NCBI GenBank assembly: GCA_021286825.1
Contig: JAJTBP010000002.1
Coordinates: 1-60,031, forward strand
Reading direction: 5' to 3'
Source of the DNA: Marinilabiliales bacterium
GTDB taxonomy: Bacteria; Bacteroidota; Bacteroidia; Bacteroidales; Prolixibacteraceae
DNA: 60,031 nucleotides
The translations under genes were made by a program, and so were the position numbers. This document shows, in pieces, positions 3,733-11,140 of the stretch. Positions within the stretch are counted from its first letter, which is position 1. Each line of letters begins with the position of its first letter. The notes under the pieces were generated by a model. It had not been told where the DNA came from. It saw only the letters and a program-made list of their open reading frames with translations, and ran no database searches.

Positions 3733-5163
3733 ATGAAAAGACTATCCTTACTCCTGCTGGGTGCTTCCCAGGTTGCATCTTTGGCTACATCGGCGCAGCA
3801 CCCCAACATTGTTTTCATCCTGGCCGATGACCTGGGTTATGCCGACCTTGGTTGTTATGGGCAGCAGCATTTCGAAACGCCCAACATCGACCGACTGGCG
3901 CAGGAGGGGATGCGTTTTACGAGACACTATGCAGGATGTACCGTCTCGGCACCTTCCCGTTCCTCCCTGATGACCGGACTACACACCGGGCATGCCCCCA
4001 TCCGTGGCAACAAAGGCTTTGGCAACGAAGGTGAATGGCCCGTTCCCGCCGGAACTTTCACACTGGCGGGTATGCTGAAATCGGCCGGATACCGGACAGG
4101 TGCCTTCGGCAAATGGGGACTCGGATCTCCCGGTTCGGAAGGTGATCCACTCAATCAGGGGTTCGATACTTTCTTCGGATTCAACAGCCAGACCCTGGCC
4201 CACAACTATTACGCCGACTACCTCTGGGACAACGACAAGAAATTCATGATTGAGGAGAACCGGGATGGAAAAAACGGACGCTTTGTTCCCGACCTGATCC
4301 ACCAGCGAGCCCTACAGTTCCTTGAAGAGAACAAGGAAAAGCCCTTCTTCCTATTCTATCCAACCACCATTCCTCATGCCGAACTCGTTGCACCGGAAGA
4401 GGAGATGGCCCGCTTCCGCGGAAAGTTCCCACCCGAAAAATCCTTCAAGGGGACAGACAAGGGACAGCCCGGCTTCCGAAAGGGGCCTTATGGCTCCCAA
4501 CTTGAAACACATGCCGCCTTCGCCGCCATGGTAACCCATCTGGATCGTCAGGTAGGTGAGATCATGGCGAAGCTAAAGGAACTGGGGCTCGATCAAAATA
4601 CACTGGTCATCTTCAGTTCGGACAATGGACCCCACATCGAAGGGGGAGCCGATCCAGACTTCTTCGACAGCAACGGTCCATGCAAAGGATTCAAACGGGA
4701 TCTCTACGAAGGAGGCATCCGAATTCCGATGATCACACGCTGGCCGGGTCACATTCAACCTGGGAAGGTAACAGACCATGCCTCCGCCTTTTGGGATTTC
4801 CTGCCCACCCTGGCCGAATTGACCGGTCAGAAGATTCCGGATCATCTGGATGGCCTCTCATTCCTGCCATTGCTCATCGGTAAGAAAGGCCAACAGAACC
4901 ACCGGTTTTTCTATTGGGAATTCCATGAATTGAAAGGCAGACAGGCCATCCTCATGGGAAATTGGAAACTGATCCGCTACCAGGTCATGGTTCCGGAGGA
5001 GACCACCACCGAACTTTACGACCTGAGCAAAGATCCTGGAGAGACCCATAATTTGGCAGCCCGATACCCGGCAAAGGTGGCGTTGCTGCTCAAGCAACTC
5101 AAAAAAGAACGGACAGTCTCAGCCGGATTCCCATTCCCCCCTGTGGATCAGCAAAATTTCTGA
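3733..5163 (+). CDS. Secreted sulfatase, Ser-type active site
   Basis: A 476-residue arylsulfatase-family (alkaline phosphatase superfamily) protein with a signal peptide of about 21 residues. The metal-binding Asp pair is in ADDLGYADLG (residues 31-40) and the active-site signature is S-A-P-S-R at 72-76, with the downstream GKWGLG and FSSDNGPH blocks intact. Ser instead of Cys at the modified position means formylglycine would be made by the anaerobic radical-SAM maturase anSME, which is not in this window. Sequence features fit the N-acetylgalactosamine/glucosamine-6-sulfatase-like (S1) group, but the sulfated substrate cannot be fixed. Proximity to a fucosidase suggests sulfated, fucosylated glycans. 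Confidence 0.9.
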   Translation: MKRLSLLLLGASQVASLATSAQHPNIVFILADDLGYADLGCYGQQHFETPNIDRLAQEGMRFTRHYAGCTVSAPSRSSLMTGLHTGHAPIRGNKGFGNEGEWPVPAGTFTLAGMLKSAGYRTGAFGKWGLGSPGSEGDPLNQGFDTFFGFNSQTLAHNYYADYLWDNDKKFMIEENRDGKNGRFVPDLIHQRALQFLEENKEKPFFLFYPTTIPHAELVAPEEEMARFRGKFPPEKSFKGTDKGQPGFRKGPYGSQLETHAAFAAMVTHLDRQVGEIMAKLKELGLDQNTLVIFSSDNGPHIEGGADPDFFDSNGPCKGFKRDLYEGGIRIPMITRWPGHIQPGKVTDHASAFWDFLPTLAELTGQKIPDHLDGLSFLPLLIGKKGQQNHRFFYWEFHELKGRQAILMGNWKLIRYQVMVPEETTTELYDLSKDPGETHNLAARYPAKVALLLKQLKKERTVSAGFPFPPVDQQNF

Positions 5164-5280: not shown

Positions 5281-5358
5281 CTATTTCTACGGGGATTCTA
5301 TGACCCCCGCGGACTCCTCATTGAGAACGAAAACTTGTAATTAAGATTGACACTCAAC

Positions 5359-6888
5359 ATGAAATGGAGTAAGTTTTTGGAAGGAAGTAAAGCAAAATAT
5401 CTATGGTTGATGGCAGGCATGCTGCTTTGTCTGATCATCCTGTTATCTGTTTATCAGGTCTCTGAAGTCACCTCTTCCGACAAATATTGTGTTTCCTGTC
5501 ACATTCATCCAGTCCCGGATCAGAATTGGAGGCTCTCCGAACACTTCAACAACAAAGCCGGAGTGGTTACCCATTGTGTCGAATGCCACCTTCCTCCCAA
5601 GGGTCATGGCTATTTCCCGGCGAAGATCAAGCACGGTCTGAAGGATGTGTACGGCAAGCTCTTCAAAGACAGCGCCTCTTTTGACTGGGAGTCCCGCAAA
5701 GCACTGGAGGTGGCCAAAGGATATGTCTATGAGGAATCCTGCAAAAAATGCCATCAGAACCTCTTCCCTGCCACCCTTTCGGTTAACGGAAGCAATGCCC
5801 ACCTGCAATATGTCAACAGCAAGGAGGAGCCCAAACCCCACTGTCTGAACTGTCACCTCAACGTTGGCCATTACGACAAGAACAACCTGCATGCCCACAA
5901 TGCCAACTTCGGCGTGACGGAAACGGTTGCCAAAGAGCTCTTTGCCGCAGCAACGGAAGTGAAGAAATTCTCTGCCTTCACCGAGCAGGTTCCTGGCACC
6001 ACCCTCTCCTTTGACATGGTGGCGATCCCGGAAGGCACTTTTGATATGGGAAGTCCGCAGGTTGAAGAACTCCGCAAACCCGATGAGGGCCCCGTCAGGA
6101 AGGTGCATCTGACCCGTTTCTTTATGGCCAAAACCGAAGTGACCTGGGATGAATACCTGGAGTTCTTCAAAGCCACCGCTTCCCAGGGAAGGAAAGAGGA
6201 GAGCACACCCAAAGCCGAGACCGATGCCATCACGGGCCCGACCCCGCCATGGGGCGCCCCGGACCAGGGATGGGGAAAAGGGACAAGACCGGCCATCACC
6301 ATGTCATGGAAAGCCGCCAACACCTACTGCCAATGGTTGTCCAGAAAAACAGGAAAAAAATACCGGCTTCCCACAGAAGCAGAATGGGAATATGCGAGCC
6401 GTGGCGGAACGCAGAGCCCTTATTTCTTCCCAGGAAATGCCAAAAAATTCAGTGCGTCGGGTATGTGGAACAAGATCTTTGGACCCGATACCACCACCAT
6501 CAACTCTTTCGTGGTGTACAAGACCAACAGTCAGTCGAAGACCAAGGAACCCGGATCTGTCAAAGCCAATCCTTTCGGTCTGAAAAACATGCTGGGAAAT
6601 GTGGCCGAGTTCTGCTCTGACTTCTATTCCCCGAATGGGTACAAGAGCAACGAGCCGGTACCTCTCAACGATCCAAAAGGTCCGGCCAACGGACAGGAAC
6701 ATGTGATCCGGGGCGGATCCTTCAAGAGTGATGCCAAGGATGTTCGCTGTGCCTCCAGGGATTTCACCAAAACGAAGGCATGGTTGATGACCGATCCACA
6801 GATGCCCAAGAGTGTCTGGTGGTATTCAGACAGCAATGATGTTGGCTTCAGGGTCGTTTGTGAAGTCGATGCAGCACTACCCAAATGA
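5359..6888 (+). CDS. NapC/NrfH-type tetraheme cytochrome c fused to a SUMF1 (FGE-like) domain
   Basis: About 509 residues. A membrane helix (about residues 14-34) leads into four CxxCH heme motifs, CVSCH (44-48), CVECH (73-77), CKKCH (128-132) and CLNCH (162-166), the layout of NapC/NirT/NrfH quinol-oxidising cytochromes. From about residue 219 a complete SUMF1/FGE-sulfatase fold follows: IPEGTFDMGS, RLPTEAEWEYASRGG, NMLGNVAEFCSD, VIRGGSFKSD and DVGFRVV. True formylglycine-generating enzymes carry two copper-binding Cys after RGGS; here the first position is absent (RGGSFKSDAKDVRCASR), so sulfatase activation is unlikely. ATG at 5359 is chosen over the TTG at 5347. The fusion is unusual; it is followed 101 bases later by exported Gfo/Idh/MocA genes and may exchange electrons or assemble with them (inference). 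Confidence 0.85.
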   Translation: MKWSKFLEGSKAKYLWLMAGMLLCLIILLSVYQVSEVTSSDKYCVSCHIHPVPDQNWRLSEHFNNKAGVVTHCVECHLPPKGHGYFPAKIKHGLKDVYGKLFKDSASFDWESRKALEVAKGYVYEESCKKCHQNLFPATLSVNGSNAHLQYVNSKEEPKPHCLNCHLNVGHYDKNNLHAHNANFGVTETVAKELFAAATEVKKFSAFTEQVPGTTLSFDMVAIPEGTFDMGSPQVEELRKPDEGPVRKVHLTRFFMAKTEVTWDEYLEFFKATASQGRKEESTPKAETDAITGPTPPWGAPDQGWGKGTRPAITMSWKAANTYCQWLSRKTGKKYRLPTEAEWEYASRGGTQSPYFFPGNAKKFSASGMWNKIFGPDTTTINSFVVYKTNSQSKTKEPGSVKANPFGLKNMLGNVAEFCSDFYSPNGYKSNEPVPLNDPKGPANGQEHVIRGGSFKSDAKDVRCASRDFTKTKAWLMTDPQMPKSVWWYSDSNDVGFRVVCEVDAALPK

Positions 6889-6989
6889 TCGGAGCAGTGC
6901 TTCAAGTGAATAACAGATAAAAATTTACACCTGATTCCGCGGACAGTCGAAAGCGTGATCGCCGGGCCCGGAATATATGCTTGCTAATC

Positions 6990-8333
6990 ATGGAAAAGAA
7001 AAACATTGACAGAAGAAAATTTTTGGGTACCGGGGTTCTTGCCGGTGCGACTGTCTTGGGCGCCAATGCGTTGCTCAACTCCTGCAAGGCAGAGCCCACC
7101 AATGCCTCGCTGGGTTTGCCACCGATTCTGAAGGGAGCTCCCAAAGGCAGGAAGCTGAAAGCCGGTCTCGTAGGCTGTGGCAACCGGGGAACGGGAGCTG
7201 CCATCAACTTCATCAGTGCCGGTCCGGACCTGGAGATTGCCGCTGCTTGCGACCTTTTTCAAGACAAGATCGATGCCTTCCGGGAACGCTTCAAGTCATT
7301 TAACCTGGAAGTTCCGGAGAAAAACTGTTTCGCCGGCTTTGACGGATACAAGAAACTGATGGCTCTGGAAGAACTCGACGTGGTGTTGCTGGCCACTCCC
7401 CCCAGATTCAGACCGGATCATCTGCTGGAAGCCATTCAGAACAAGAAGCATGTCTTCATGGAAAAACCGGCAGGTGTAGACCCGGTCGGCATCCGTTCCG
7501 TCCTCGCCTCTGCAAAAAAAGCGGAAGCACTCGGACTCAACATCGTGACCGGCACTCAAAGAAGGCATCAGGAAGATTACATCGAAACCTACAAAAGGGT
7601 CAAAGCCGGAGCGATCGGTCGCCTCACGGCTGCCAAAGCCTTCTGGAACCAGGAGCACGTCTGGTTCCGCACCCGGGAAGAGGGTTGGGATGACATGACT
7701 TACATGATGCGCAACTGGAACAACTTCTGCTGGGTCGGAGGCGACCACATCCTCGATACCCATGTGCACAACATCGATGTCATCAACTGGTTTATGGGCA
7801 AGACACCCCTGAAAGCCGTGGGCAACGGTGGCCGGCACCGCAGGGTAACGGGCGACCAATACGACTATTTCAACATCGACTTTGATTACGGCAATGGCGT
7901 CTTCTCGCACAGCTTTTGCCGCCAAATCGACAGTTGCGCCAACGGCACCGGAGAGCTCATCATGGGAACCGAAGGGTATACCAATTGCGTCAACACCATC
8001 TGGGATCTGGATGGAAAAATCAAGTGGCAATTCGAATATCCCAAAGACGAAAATGGCAATGCCATGAGCCAGCTGAAAATACCTGCCTACGTTCAGGAAC
8101 ACATGCACCTCGTCTATGCCATCCGAAAAGGGACCTATGTCAACCAGGCGGAGGAGACGGCCCTTTCCACCCTCACAGCCATCATGGGACGCACGGCAGC
8201 CTATACCGGACAAATGGTCACCTGGGAGGAGATGATGAAATCCGATATGCAATTGGGTCCGAAAGAGATGAAATTCGGGCCTGTCGAGATGAAATTCGAA
8301 GTTCCAGTACCGGGAACTCCCCCAAATGTATGA
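6990..8333 (+). CDS. Tat-exported Gfo/Idh/MocA oxidoreductase (1)
   Basis: About 447 residues. A twin-arginine leader, DRRKFLGTG, is followed by a hydrophobic stretch ending near LLNSC, so export by Tat is likely and lipidation is possible. The nucleotide-binding fold begins with GLVGCGNRGTG, and the EKPAGVDP block contains the Lys-Pro of the Gfo/Idh/MocA family. The GGDHILDTHVHNIDV helix contributes catalytic His/Asp residues. The family oxidises or reduces sugars with tightly bound NAD(P); exported members such as glucose-fructose oxidoreductase recycle the cofactor in place. ATG at 6990 is preferred to the upstream TTG at 6981. It lies 78 bases before a second family member and after the tetraheme-SUMF1 fusion. 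Substrate is unknown. Confidence 0.88.
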   Translation: MEKKNIDRRKFLGTGVLAGATVLGANALLNSCKAEPTNASLGLPPILKGAPKGRKLKAGLVGCGNRGTGAAINFISAGPDLEIAAACDLFQDKIDAFRERFKSFNLEVPEKNCFAGFDGYKKLMALEELDVVLLATPPRFRPDHLLEAIQNKKHVFMEKPAGVDPVGIRSVLASAKKAEALGLNIVTGTQRRHQEDYIETYKRVKAGAIGRLTAAKAFWNQEHVWFRTREEGWDDMTYMMRNWNNFCWVGGDHILDTHVHNIDVINWFMGKTPLKAVGNGGRHRRVTGDQYDYFNIDFDYGNGVFSHSFCRQIDSCANGTGELIMGTEGYTNCVNTIWDLDGKIKWQFEYPKDENGNAMSQLKIPAYVQEHMHLVYAIRKGTYVNQAEETALSTLTAIMGRTAAYTGQMVTWEEMMKSDMQLGPKEMKFGPVEMKFEVPVPGTPPNV

Positions 8334-8348
8334 TAAATGACTAACTTA

Positions 8349-8380
8349 ACAGGCAGGAATGGAAACGCCCACCTGCCTGT
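8349..8380 (+). repeat. Intercistronic inverted repeat between the two Gfo/Idh/MocA genes
   Basis: ACAGGCAGG (8349-8357) and CCTGCCTGT (8372-8380) form a perfect 9-bp stem around a 14-base loop. No U-run follows, so it looks more like an mRNA-stabilising or processing hairpin than a terminator. Confidence 0.5.
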
Positions 8381-8411
8381 GCGATCCGTTTCAACAACCA
8401 ATAATCAAACT

Positions 8412-9725
8412 ATGACAACCCAGACAAACAGAAGAGCATTTCTGAAAAATTCGGCTGTTGCTTCCGTTGGTTCCCTGATTCTGCCTTCCATCATCCCCTC
8501 TACAGCACTGGGGATGGGTGGTAAACCAGCCCCCAGCAACAGGATTGTGATGGGAGCCATCGGCACCGGTTCCCAGGGCCGAAGCAACATCGGTGATTTC
8601 CTTGAACTCAACAACCAGGTTCAATTTGTGGCACTCTGCGATGTCGATACCGGCAGCTTACAGAAGGCGAAAGAAAAAATTGCCAAAAGCGGGGCCAAAG
8701 ACGACCAGCGCACCTACGGCGATTTTCGTGAATTCCTTGAAAAAGAAAAACTGGATGCGGTAACCATCGCACTGCCGGATCACTGGCATGGCATCATCTA
8801 TACCGCGGCAGCCGAAAAGAAGCTCCACGTCTACGGCGAAAAACCAATCTGCCGGACCATTCACGACGGTCAAACCATCGTCAAGGCGGTGCAGAAAAAC
8901 AACATCATCTGGCAGACCGGTAGTTGGCAGAGGTCGCGATCCAATTTCCACAGGGGAGCCGAATTGGTCATCAACGGAAGGATTGGGAAGATACAACGGA
9001 TCGAGGTGGGACTGCCCAACGGCAACAAAGGCATCGGTACCCCACCCGTTCAGGAGGTTCCGAAAGAACTGAACTGGGACATGTGGTTGGGTCCTGCTCC
9101 GAAAGTAGCATACAGGGGTGTCAGCCACTGGAACTGGCGCTGGATCCTTGACTATTCCGGCGGTCAGCTCACCGACTGGGCCGGTCATCACATCGACATC
9201 GCCAATTGGGGTGCCGGATTGGAACACACCGGTCCCGTAGAGATCTCGGGAGTTGGTGTCTATCCACGGGAGGGTATTTACAACGTCCCCGTGGAGTATG
9301 ATTTCAACTGTAAGTATGCCAACGGCATCGAAATGAGGGTATGCAACGAAGGCCGGCTGGAGATGGGTTCCGGCACCACCTGGTATGGCGACAAGGGATG
9401 GATCCATGTCAACAGGGGCGAGACCCTCGTGGCCTCTGACCCCAAAATCCTCCAGGAAGTGATTGGCGAAAAGGAGATTCACCTGATCAAAAGCGACAAC
9501 CATTGGCAGAACTTCATCGACTGCGTCCGTTCAGGCCAGAAAACCATCGCTCCGGTGGAGGTAGCCTACAGGGCCATCTCGGTTGGACTGCTGGGTGAAA
9601 TCGCCATGCAGACCGGACAGACCATCCATTGGGATCCGGAAAAGGAGGAAATCATTGGTAATCCGATGGCCGCCAGACTCCTGAACAGGCCCTATCGTCA
9701 ACCTTGGCATTTAGCAACCCTCTAA
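8412..9725 (+). CDS. Tat-exported Gfo/Idh/MocA oxidoreductase (2)
   Basis: About 437 residues starting at the ATG at 8412, which places the twin-arginine motif NRRAFLKNS at residues 6-14. The open frame extends upstream to 8337, but that part runs through the hairpin. The Rossmann motif MGAIGTGSQGR, the VTIALPDHWHG segment, the EKPICRTI block with the family Lys-Pro and the DWAGHHIDIANWG active-site helix mark a Gfo/Idh/MocA dehydrogenase of the type common beside DUF1080 and ThuA genes. It probably oxidises the C3 hydroxyl of a glycoside or inositol-like substrate, by analogy with such clusters. It is only 12 bases upstream of the ThuA-domain gene, so the run from the tetraheme fusion to ThuA looks like one operon. 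Confidence 0.88.
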   Translation: MTTQTNRRAFLKNSAVASVGSLILPSIIPSTALGMGGKPAPSNRIVMGAIGTGSQGRSNIGDFLELNNQVQFVALCDVDTGSLQKAKEKIAKSGAKDDQRTYGDFREFLEKEKLDAVTIALPDHWHGIIYTAAAEKKLHVYGEKPICRTIHDGQTIVKAVQKNNIIWQTGSWQRSRSNFHRGAELVINGRIGKIQRIEVGLPNGNKGIGTPPVQEVPKELNWDMWLGPAPKVAYRGVSHWNWRWILDYSGGQLTDWAGHHIDIANWGAGLEHTGPVEISGVGVYPREGIYNVPVEYDFNCKYANGIEMRVCNEGRLEMGSGTTWYGDKGWIHVNRGETLVASDPKILQEVIGEKEIHLIKSDNHWQNFIDCVRSGQKTIAPVEVAYRAISVGLLGEIAMQTGQTIHWDPEKEEIIGNPMAARLLNRPYRQPWHLATL

Positions 9726-9737
9726 GCACTACCTCCC

Positions 9738-10946
9738 ATGAAAAAAATACAGATCCTATTTGTACTGCTGGCCGGATTTCTCCTCTTCCAATCCTGTCAG
9801 GAAAAAAGAGCCTACAGGGCCCTGATCATCACCGGTCAAAGCAACCACAACTGGATGGCCTCTTCACCCATTCTCAAGACCATCCTCGACCAGACTGGCC
9901 TCTTCGCAACCGATATCGCCCGGACACCCAAAGAGGGCGGAGACATGAGCAAGTTCCAGCCTGATTTCCAGAAATACAACGTCGTGGTGATGGCATACAA
10001 TGGCGACAGCTGGCCAGAAAAGACCAAGACTGCCTTTCTGGACTATGTGAAAAACGGGGGTGGTGTCGTGATCTACCACGAAGCCGACAACTCCTTCCCC
10101 GATTGGAAAGAATACAACGAGATCATTGGCCTCGGGGGTTGGAACCACAGATCCGAGAAAGATGGTCCCTATGTCTACTACAAAAACAATGTTCTGGTCA
10201 GGGATACTGCCAAGGGTTCTGCCGGATCGCACGGACCACAGCACGAATTTCTCGTCAAGGCCAGAAAACCGGACCATCCCATCTTGAAAGGACTTCCCGT
10301 AGCCTGGATGCATGGCAAGGATGAGTTGTACAGCACCTTGCGTGGACCGGCCCAAAACATGGAGATCCTGGCCACCGCTTACGCGGATACCGCCAAACGA
10401 GGAACCGGCCGTGACGAACCGATGTTGATGACCATCAGCTACGGCAAAGGCCGCATCTTTCATACAGCCATGGGACACGTTGGAAAGGATGAGACCCATC
10501 CGGCAACGGAATGTGTTGGATTTATCGTCACCCTCCAACGGGGTGCCGAATGGGCTGCCACAGGAAATGTGACGCAGCAGATCCCCATCGACTTCCCCAA
10601 TGTCGCCTGCTCTGTTTCAAGGCCCGATTACAAGGAGGTAACCCTTTCTGAGGACCTGGACAAGATTTCCAAATACTCCATCGACAAGAGCACGCGCTAC
10701 TATACCGATCTTCAGGCCAGAATCCGCAAGGTCACCGGGGATCCGGCCGCCCTGCTCGAACTGGAGAAGAAGATGGTGCAAGTGCTGAAGGACAAAAATG
10801 CCACTGCCGAAGGAAAGAAGCTTCTCCTTCGCGAACTGGCCTGGATGGGCTCCGATTACTGCCTGCCGGTGGTTCAGGAATTGCAAAAGGATGCCGATCT
10901 TCAGGAAGCAGCCACCTTTGCCATCGAACGCATGAAACCACAGTAA
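9738..10946 (+). CDS. ThuA-domain lipoprotein
   Basis: A 402-residue protein with a lipoprotein signal peptide (lipobox LLFQSC, Cys about residue 20). The class-I-glutamine-amidotransferase-like ThuA fold runs to about residue 260: ALIITGQSNHNW, VVVMAYNGDSWP, GGGVVIYHEADNSF and YGKGRIFHTAMGHV. ThuA proteins take part in trehalose and other disaccharide utilisation, often next to Gfo/Idh/MocA oxidoreductases and DUF1080 proteins, where 3-keto sugars are intermediates. The last 130 residues are helical and look like a short HEAT/ARM-type tail. It is the last gene of the presumed operon, with a strong terminator about 150 bases downstream. Confidence 0.85.
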   Translation: MKKIQILFVLLAGFLLFQSCQEKRAYRALIITGQSNHNWMASSPILKTILDQTGLFATDIARTPKEGGDMSKFQPDFQKYNVVVMAYNGDSWPEKTKTAFLDYVKNGGGVVIYHEADNSFPDWKEYNEIIGLGGWNHRSEKDGPYVYYKNNVLVRDTAKGSAGSHGPQHEFLVKARKPDHPILKGLPVAWMHGKDELYSTLRGPAQNMEILATAYADTAKRGTGRDEPMLMTISYGKGRIFHTAMGHVGKDETHPATECVGFIVTLQRGAEWAATGNVTQQIPIDFPNVACSVSRPDYKEVTLSEDLDKISKYSIDKSTRYYTDLQARIRKVTGDPAALLELEKKMVQVLKDKNATAEGKKLLLRELAWMGSDYCLPVVQELQKDADLQEAATFAIERMKPQ

Positions 10947-11093: not shown

Positions 11094-11140
11094 GGCATCC
11101 CGTTACAAGAAAGGATTTGTGACGGGATGCCGCCGTTTTT
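11094..11140 (+). terminator. Strong terminator between the ThuA gene and the GT2 gene
   Basis: Arms 11094-11108 and 11117-11131 (GGCATCCCGT/ACGGGATGCC plus ACAA/TTGT with one G-T pair) enclose an 8-base loop; TTTTT follows at 11136-11140. It ends 11 bases before the GT2 ATG, so it could end the upstream operon or attenuate GT2. A GTG start at 11119 would lie inside it, which argues for ATG 11152. Confidence 0.75.

Follow-up and report, generated by a model that had tools for sequence, protein, structure and literature searches.

The locus described here raises the question of what a quinol-linked tetraheme cytochrome accomplishes when it is fused to the fold of the formylglycine-generating enzyme (FGE) and followed by exported oxidoreductases. 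It is located in a stretch of DNA 60,031 nucleotides long (the window), the contig of which, C104, is part of a 3.64-Mb metagenome-assembled genome of the phylum Bacteroidota. The domains NapC/NirT (PF03264, E = 1e-25) and FGE-sulfatase (PF03781, E = 1e-44) share a single frame of the forward strand, with the open reading frame (ORF) opening at position 5347, the start codon ATG at 5359 and the end at 6888. With both Pfam domains in one frame, four CxxCH motifs and a membrane helix, the tetraheme NapC–SUMF1 fusion described in an earlier note on this DNA is real. The explanation favoured here, given a chance slightly short of even, is that the fusion is a membrane-anchored redox and docking partner of the adjacent Gfo/Idh/MocA oxidoreductase, designated Gfo1, in the oxidation of sugars in the periplasm, with transfer of electrons to menaquinone. 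The features on which the analysis is based are as follows.

5359..6888, + strand: NapC/NrfH-type tetraheme cytochrome–SUMF1 (FGE-fold) fusion, 509 amino acids (Pfam domains, alignment)
5386..5472, + strand: N-terminal transmembrane helix, residues 10–38 (AlphaFold2 model; membrane anchor predicted from homology to NrfH)
5398..5874, + strand: PF03264 NapC/NirT domain (Pfam)
5488–5502, 5575–5589, 5740–5754 and 5842–5856, + strand: CxxCH motifs 1–4, the heme-1 motif being CxxCHxH
6013..6765, + strand: SUMF1/FGE-fold domain that lacks the two FGE cysteines (Pfam, alignment)
6793..6822, + strand: DPQxPKSxWW, the signature of the SUMF1 subfamily (alignment)
6990..8333 (ORF from 6981), + strand: Gfo1, a Tat-lipoprotein oxidoreductase of the Gfo/Idh/MocA family and obligate neighbour of the fusion (PF01408, motifs, fold)

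Distribution of the fusion and its pairing with Gfo1

Homologues of the fusion were sought in relatives and in 84,980 species genomes, with subsequent enlargement of the regions, and the coverage was largely that of the phylum Bacteroidota. Non-redundant full-length fusions, each with four CxxCH motifs, numbered 76 at first and 81 after the addition of 5 later ones. Their carriers are Bacteroidota, among others of the families Prolixibacteraceae and Tannerellaceae, and one of them is Parabacteroides distasonis (WP_008779407.1); the closest named relatives belong to Prolixibacteraceae and uncultured Bacteroidia. In the corrected SUMF1 tree, the 81 fused domains form one clade, with a weak support of just 0.5. 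The fusion is ancestral and widespread, and misassembly is ruled out by 81 independent fusions.

The gene located 3' of the fusion encodes, on the same strand, a Gfo/Idh/MocA protein of one cluster in all 73 loci in which the contig continues and in all 5 later ones (78/78 together); since the loci and genomes are phylogenetically related, these and the following counts represent non-independent events. In the first 73 loci, the fusion and Gfo1 are separated by a median of about 18 nt, and mostly by no more than 50 nt, while the 3.64-Mb genome contains about 29 Gfo/Idh/MocA genes, not all of them for exported proteins. The concern raised earlier, that the fusions might be found mostly without such neighbours, thus did not materialise. 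A second, paralogous fusion with its own Gfo (L075) is present in the same genome.

Several observations concern particular records. A 278-kb record of P. distasonis labelled as a plasmid (L163; NZ_OY725790.1, 55867–72775) encodes a TIM barrel protein together with the fusion and Gfo1, and the search among plasmids revealed this species as the one true member, along with weak cyanobacterial SUMF1 matches. One contig scan gave loci labelled as Bacteroidota and one locus labelled as Chlorobiota. A fused homologue (L024, G019:C115) has an in-frame TGA close to the contig end, which may reflect decay of this copy or a fault in the assembly. Additional Gfo1-like genes (590–634 bits) lie away from the fusion at G000:C283:1513-2847, G448:C111:20056-21408 and G630:C3:200322-201674, in genomes that also carry fused loci.

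The SUMF1–Gfo1 pair without the cytochrome

In Bacteroidota outside Bacteroidales, the same SUMF1 subfamily, recognised by the segment DPQxPxSxWW, is represented by standalone proteins of about 300–430 amino acids that appear to carry a signal for export or for a lipoprotein. Their genes adjoin Gfo1 in 27 of 33 loci: Gfo1 is directly downstream in 25, past a small ORF of the opposite strand in one, and divergent in one. In the remaining 6 genomes, Gfo1 is encoded elsewhere. The SUMF1 half is thus separate in relatives and still paired with Gfo1. The number of fusions disposes of the earlier suspicion that the joining of the two halves is an artefact of this assembly.

Among 395 genomes of the class, 25 contain both the SUMF1 subfamily and Gfo1, none SUMF1 only, 3 Gfo1 only (G124, G218 and G687), and 367 neither; SUMF1 was called across a clear score gap (327 vs 210 bits), and Gfo1 at E <= 1e-85, a cut-off of our own choice. 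This co-occurrence is the strongest evidence for SUMF1 and Gfo1 acting together. The pair persists without NapC in relatives. The conserved unit is SUMF1 with Gfo1, to which NapC was added in a particular lineage. Tree distances of SUMF1 and Gfo1 are positively correlated (Pearson 0.70 overall, aligned distances; Mantel 0/500; weaker in the fused set), a result that carries little weight, three domains being incomplete in that run.

Two further loci (L143:8198-16150 and L144:8059-16364) encode SUMF1 of the same subfamily without an adjoining Gfo1, followed by a YceI-like protein, and also a PSCyt1/PSCyt2/PSD1 protein, a Tat-signal protein, a membrane protein with one CxxCH and, in L143 only, ApbE. 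The SUMF1 domain may serve a different redox purpose there.

Properties of Gfo1

Gfo1, a protein of about 450 amino acids, is a Tat-exported lipoprotein, with the RR pair and the lipobox Cys invariant in 54 of 54 aligned sequences. The same sequences retain the GxGxxG motif (third Gly in 50/54), the acidic residue D88, the EKP motif and a catalytic-type His. The PF01408 Rossmann domain, the Lys of EKP, the catalytic His and the fold place Gfo1 in the Gfo/Idh/MocA family, where it forms its own subfamily; matches to named NCBIfam models were partial and all under cut-off. Structural matches of the AlphaFold2 model (mean pLDDT 88) are inositol dehydrogenases, aldose–aldose oxidoreductase (AAOR) and GFOR.

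This resemblance to sugar enzymes including AAOR and GFOR brings in an improbable alternative, according to which Gfo1 is redox-neutral and recycles its bound NAD(H) itself, SUMF1 is only a scaffold keeping Gfo1 at the membrane, and NapC is mainly an anchor or belongs to an unrelated electron route. In GFOR and AAOR, which have Tat signals, the cofactor stays bound through a redox-neutral cycle (PMC4628093). The argument of the earlier note that exported NAD-type oxidoreductases face a problem of electron disposal is therefore weak and was found not compelling. The existence of the NapC-free pair in unfused lineages also fits a redox-neutral Gfo1. On the other side, the four CxxCH motifs, the extra His and the Lys and Asp of the quinol site are invariant in 76/76 fusions, unlike what would be expected of a mere anchor, and ApbE genes are independently enriched near Gfo1, as described below.

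Properties of the SUMF1 domain

Alignment to solved FGEs confirmed the reported loss of the catalytic pair: both FGE cysteines are absent from the fused SUMF1 domain, including the segment after RGG. The DPQxPxSxWW segment is located after the region of the FGE active site, and its residues D, P, Q, S, W and W are invariant in 76/76 fusions and also in the standalone relatives. The linker at about residues 177–190 has low confidence in the AlphaFold2 model.

Upstream of the fusion, the window contains genes for a DUF1080 protein (856–1596) and a Ser-type sulfatase with the motif SAPSR (3733–5163). The PF03781 match together with this sulfatase could suggest that the domain is the FGE for its neighbour, an idea that can be practically dismissed: both FGE cysteines are absent, and the constant partner of the fusion is Gfo1, not a sulfatase. 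Also against it, Ser-type sulfatases are not known to be substrates of FGE, and this one would need an anaerobic-type maturase instead.

The nearest solved fold is that of PvdO (PDB 5HHA), the best PDB match by sequence (with the single protein as query) and by structure; the score against the PvdO equivalog of NCBIfam, 107.8 bits, is below its cut-off of 500. PvdO, too, is not known to carry the FGE cysteines. A quite unlikely explanation follows this parallel and makes SUMF1 itself the redox catalyst, which would work on either the substrate or the product of Gfo1 with the fused hemes as electron acceptor. It draws on the invariant segment specific to the subfamily and on the fact that PvdO is periplasmic, is required for an oxidation step and may need an electron transport system (PMC6206403). 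Against it, no conserved cofactor site was identified in the domain, purified PvdO was inactive with cofactor undetectable (PMC6206403), and the related PorK/GldK domains, which are purely structural, indicate that the SUMF1 fold can also have such a role.

Properties of the NapC/NrfH-type domain

The PF03264 score of 90.9 bits (gathering threshold 24.1) and the predicted helix at residues 10–38 place the N-terminal part in the NapC/NrfH family. Four CxxCH motifs are present in the 76 aligned fusions and the 5 later ones. Residues K82 and D89 of NrfH (PDB 2J7A) align with K89 and D96 of the fusion, invariant in 76/76. Three or four further conserved histidines are possible ligands, among them H62, H148 and H171, invariant in 76/76 and possibly axial. 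The fusion scores under the cut-offs of the NrfH, NapC and TorC models of NCBIfam, and having CxxCHxH in place of CxxCHxM, it is a member of the broad NapC/NrfH family, not NrfH proper. A cytochrome c assembly protein is encoded in the same genome.

These data bear on the direction of electron flow. NapC, NrfH and CymA are characterised as quinol dehydrogenases supplying periplasmic reductases (PMC10654088), so that electrons could pass from menaquinol through the NapC hemes to Gfo1 or a carrier and reduce a periplasmic carbonyl, for example a keto-sugar, thereby completing a pathway or providing an electron sink. The invariance of the residue equivalent to D89, and the presence of NapC in fusion-bearing lineages but not in the unfused ones tested, agree with such a reversal, which is nevertheless unlikely. 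Reduction of NAD+ by menaquinol would be uphill unless the bound NAD were strongly shifted (about −320 mV for NAD+ vs about −75 mV for menaquinol), and the optional ThuA, DUF1080 and TIM barrel proteins suggest catabolic sugar oxidation.

Redox partners in different lineages

NapC was found in 8 of 8 genomes of fused lineages, where the fusion accounts for 15 of 24 NapC matches; 14 genomes of unfused lineages were tested, and none had NapC. The gene of ApbE flavin transferase (PF02424) is no more than four genes away in 14 of 33 unfused loci vs 0 of 81 fused ones. The genomes have 1–4 ApbE matches each, and about 0.15 loci would be expected by chance, according to our estimate with about 2 copies and about 4,000 genes. 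ApbE is also found near Gfo1 where SUMF1 is located elsewhere (L181, L185 and L186). An exported Tll0287-type heme protein with one CxxCH is encoded directly upstream of standalone SUMF1–Gfo1 at L155:7207-7950 (assignment confirmed by Pfam) and L173:7339-7989 (by resemblance). The distribution of NapC, ApbE and this heme protein indicates that the redox partner differs by lineage, while SUMF1–Gfo1 is kept.

The acceptor motif of ApbE is D-x-x-[ST]-G-A-[ST] (PMC12052999). The idea that the linked ApbE flavinylates SUMF1 or Gfo1 was rejected: an acceptor motif is lacking, and the sequence GTGA(A/T) of Gfo1 is the Rossmann loop. The link to ApbE is for this reason no more than suggestive.

Optional neighbouring genes

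Downstream of Gfo1, the window contains the following features on the same strand.

8337..9725, + strand: Gfo2, a second Tat-exported Gfo/Idh/MocA protein, optional (twin-arginine signal, Pfam)
9738..10946, + strand: exported lipoprotein of the ThuA family (PF06283), optional (Pfam)
11094..11131, + strand: hairpin of 16 pairs with a T-rich tail, 3' of ThuA, probable end of the transcription unit

The strong hairpin after ThuA is consistent with a transcription unit of four genes (fusion, Gfo1, Gfo2 and ThuA). Two Tat-exported Gfo/Idh/MocA genes and ThuA are found as previously reported. As a neighbour set they fared unevenly: the first Gfo is obligate, while of 76 loci, within five genes of the fusion, 26 have a second Gfo at +2, 14 have ThuA and 10 have DUF1080, minorities that rule the latter three out as core parts. 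Gfo2 matches the model of the BT_2158 glycoside 3-dehydrogenase partially and under cut-off.

In unfused loci, a Tat-exported, xylose-isomerase-like TIM barrel protein is often encoded 3' of Gfo1 (L148:5075-6001, assigned to PF01261; L160:11769-12701; L162:11079-12023), and a divergent TIM barrel occupies this place in fused loci of the Parabacteroides type (L163, L175–L177).

Proposed function

The favoured explanation builds on the architecture of the fusion, its pairing with Gfo1, the NapC-less pair, the co-occurrence, and the conserved motifs of the heme and quinol sites and of the cofactor and catalytic sites of Gfo1. In the periplasm, Gfo1 would oxidize a hydroxyl group of a sugar or glycoside, and the product would probably be a keto-sugar, which the optional enzymes (second Gfo, ThuA, DUF1080 and xylose-isomerase-like TIM barrels) may process. 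The pseudo-FGE SUMF1 domain would bind Gfo1 or its substrate and hold it near the hemes in a membrane-anchored complex, and electron exchange between the NapC/NrfH-type hemes and menaquinone would take place at the inner membrane, so that the electrons would end in the quinone pool. The quinone-wired sugar oxidation unit proposed earlier is partly supported: the pairing with Gfo1 and the invariant K89 and D96 of the quinol site speak for it.

A number of points weigh against this explanation. The complex, the transfer of electrons between Gfo1-bound NAD(H) and the hemes, its direction and the substrate are inferred. Transfer from NADH to heme requires a two-electron to one-electron step, and the fused loci encode neither a flavin nor another switch of this kind; the ApbE acceptor motif was likewise not found in the 14 ApbE-containing loci. 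Electron flow in the NapC family is usually from quinol to the periplasm. The heme-1 Met of NrfH (CxxCHxM) is replaced by His in 76/76 aligned fusions, and this Met and Asp89 are described as essential for menaquinol oxidation in NrfH (PMC10654088). A redox-neutral cycle is possible for exported Gfo enzymes (PMC4628093), and the relatedness of the loci makes the counts ones of non-independent events.

A wider interpretation, possible but doubtful, is that of a respiratory module of Bacteroidota, in which the bound NADH of Gfo1, an exported nicotinoprotein sugar dehydrogenase, is reoxidised via the pseudo-FGE adaptor by exchangeable redox partners. These could be the fused, quinone-reactive tetraheme cytochrome in Bacteroidales and an ApbE-made flavoprotein or another heme protein elsewhere.

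Bacteroidota encode many exported Gfo/Idh/MocA enzymes. The module supplies one Gfo subfamily with an obligate partner, a clear candidate route to the quinone pool and a possible role for cysteine-less SUMF1. If electrons flow from Gfo1 to quinone, periplasmic glycan breakdown would contribute directly to respiration; in the wider interpretation, sugars derived from glycans could supply the quinone pool from the periplasmic side. Since P. distasonis, a gut commensal, is a carrier, the module is amenable to gene deletion and biochemical work.

Comparison with known systems

The component parts are of known kinds; their combination and the SUMF1–Gfo1 unit were not found in the incomplete literature searched. 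Queries for NapC–SUMF1, SUMF1–Gfo and Parabacteroides/NrfH gave nothing relevant within this partial coverage, and the flavinylation surveys examined named no association with Gfo or SUMF1. Similar to ApbE-dependent systems of extracytosolic flavinylation, unfused lineages have an ApbE gene in or next to the module, but the canonical acceptor motif is absent from the module loci.

Similar to NrfH, NapC and CymA (PF03264), the fusion has one N-terminal membrane helix, four CxxCH motifs and the Lys and Asp of the quinol site, whereas those proteins have no SUMF1 part, and their partners are NrfA or NapA instead of a Gfo/Idh/MocA enzyme. With FGE it shares the SUMF1 fold, but FGE has the catalytic cysteine pair and an unrelated gene context. 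PvdO of pyoverdine maturation is likewise a periplasmic SUMF1 fold tied to a redox step, although with other partners and no fused cytochrome. Gfo1 resembles the exported GFOR, AAOR and BT_2158-type glycoside 3-dehydrogenases in its Tat signal, Rossmann motif, Lys of EKP and catalytic-type His, and differs from them in forming its own subfamily, obligately paired with SUMF1 of the DPQ type.

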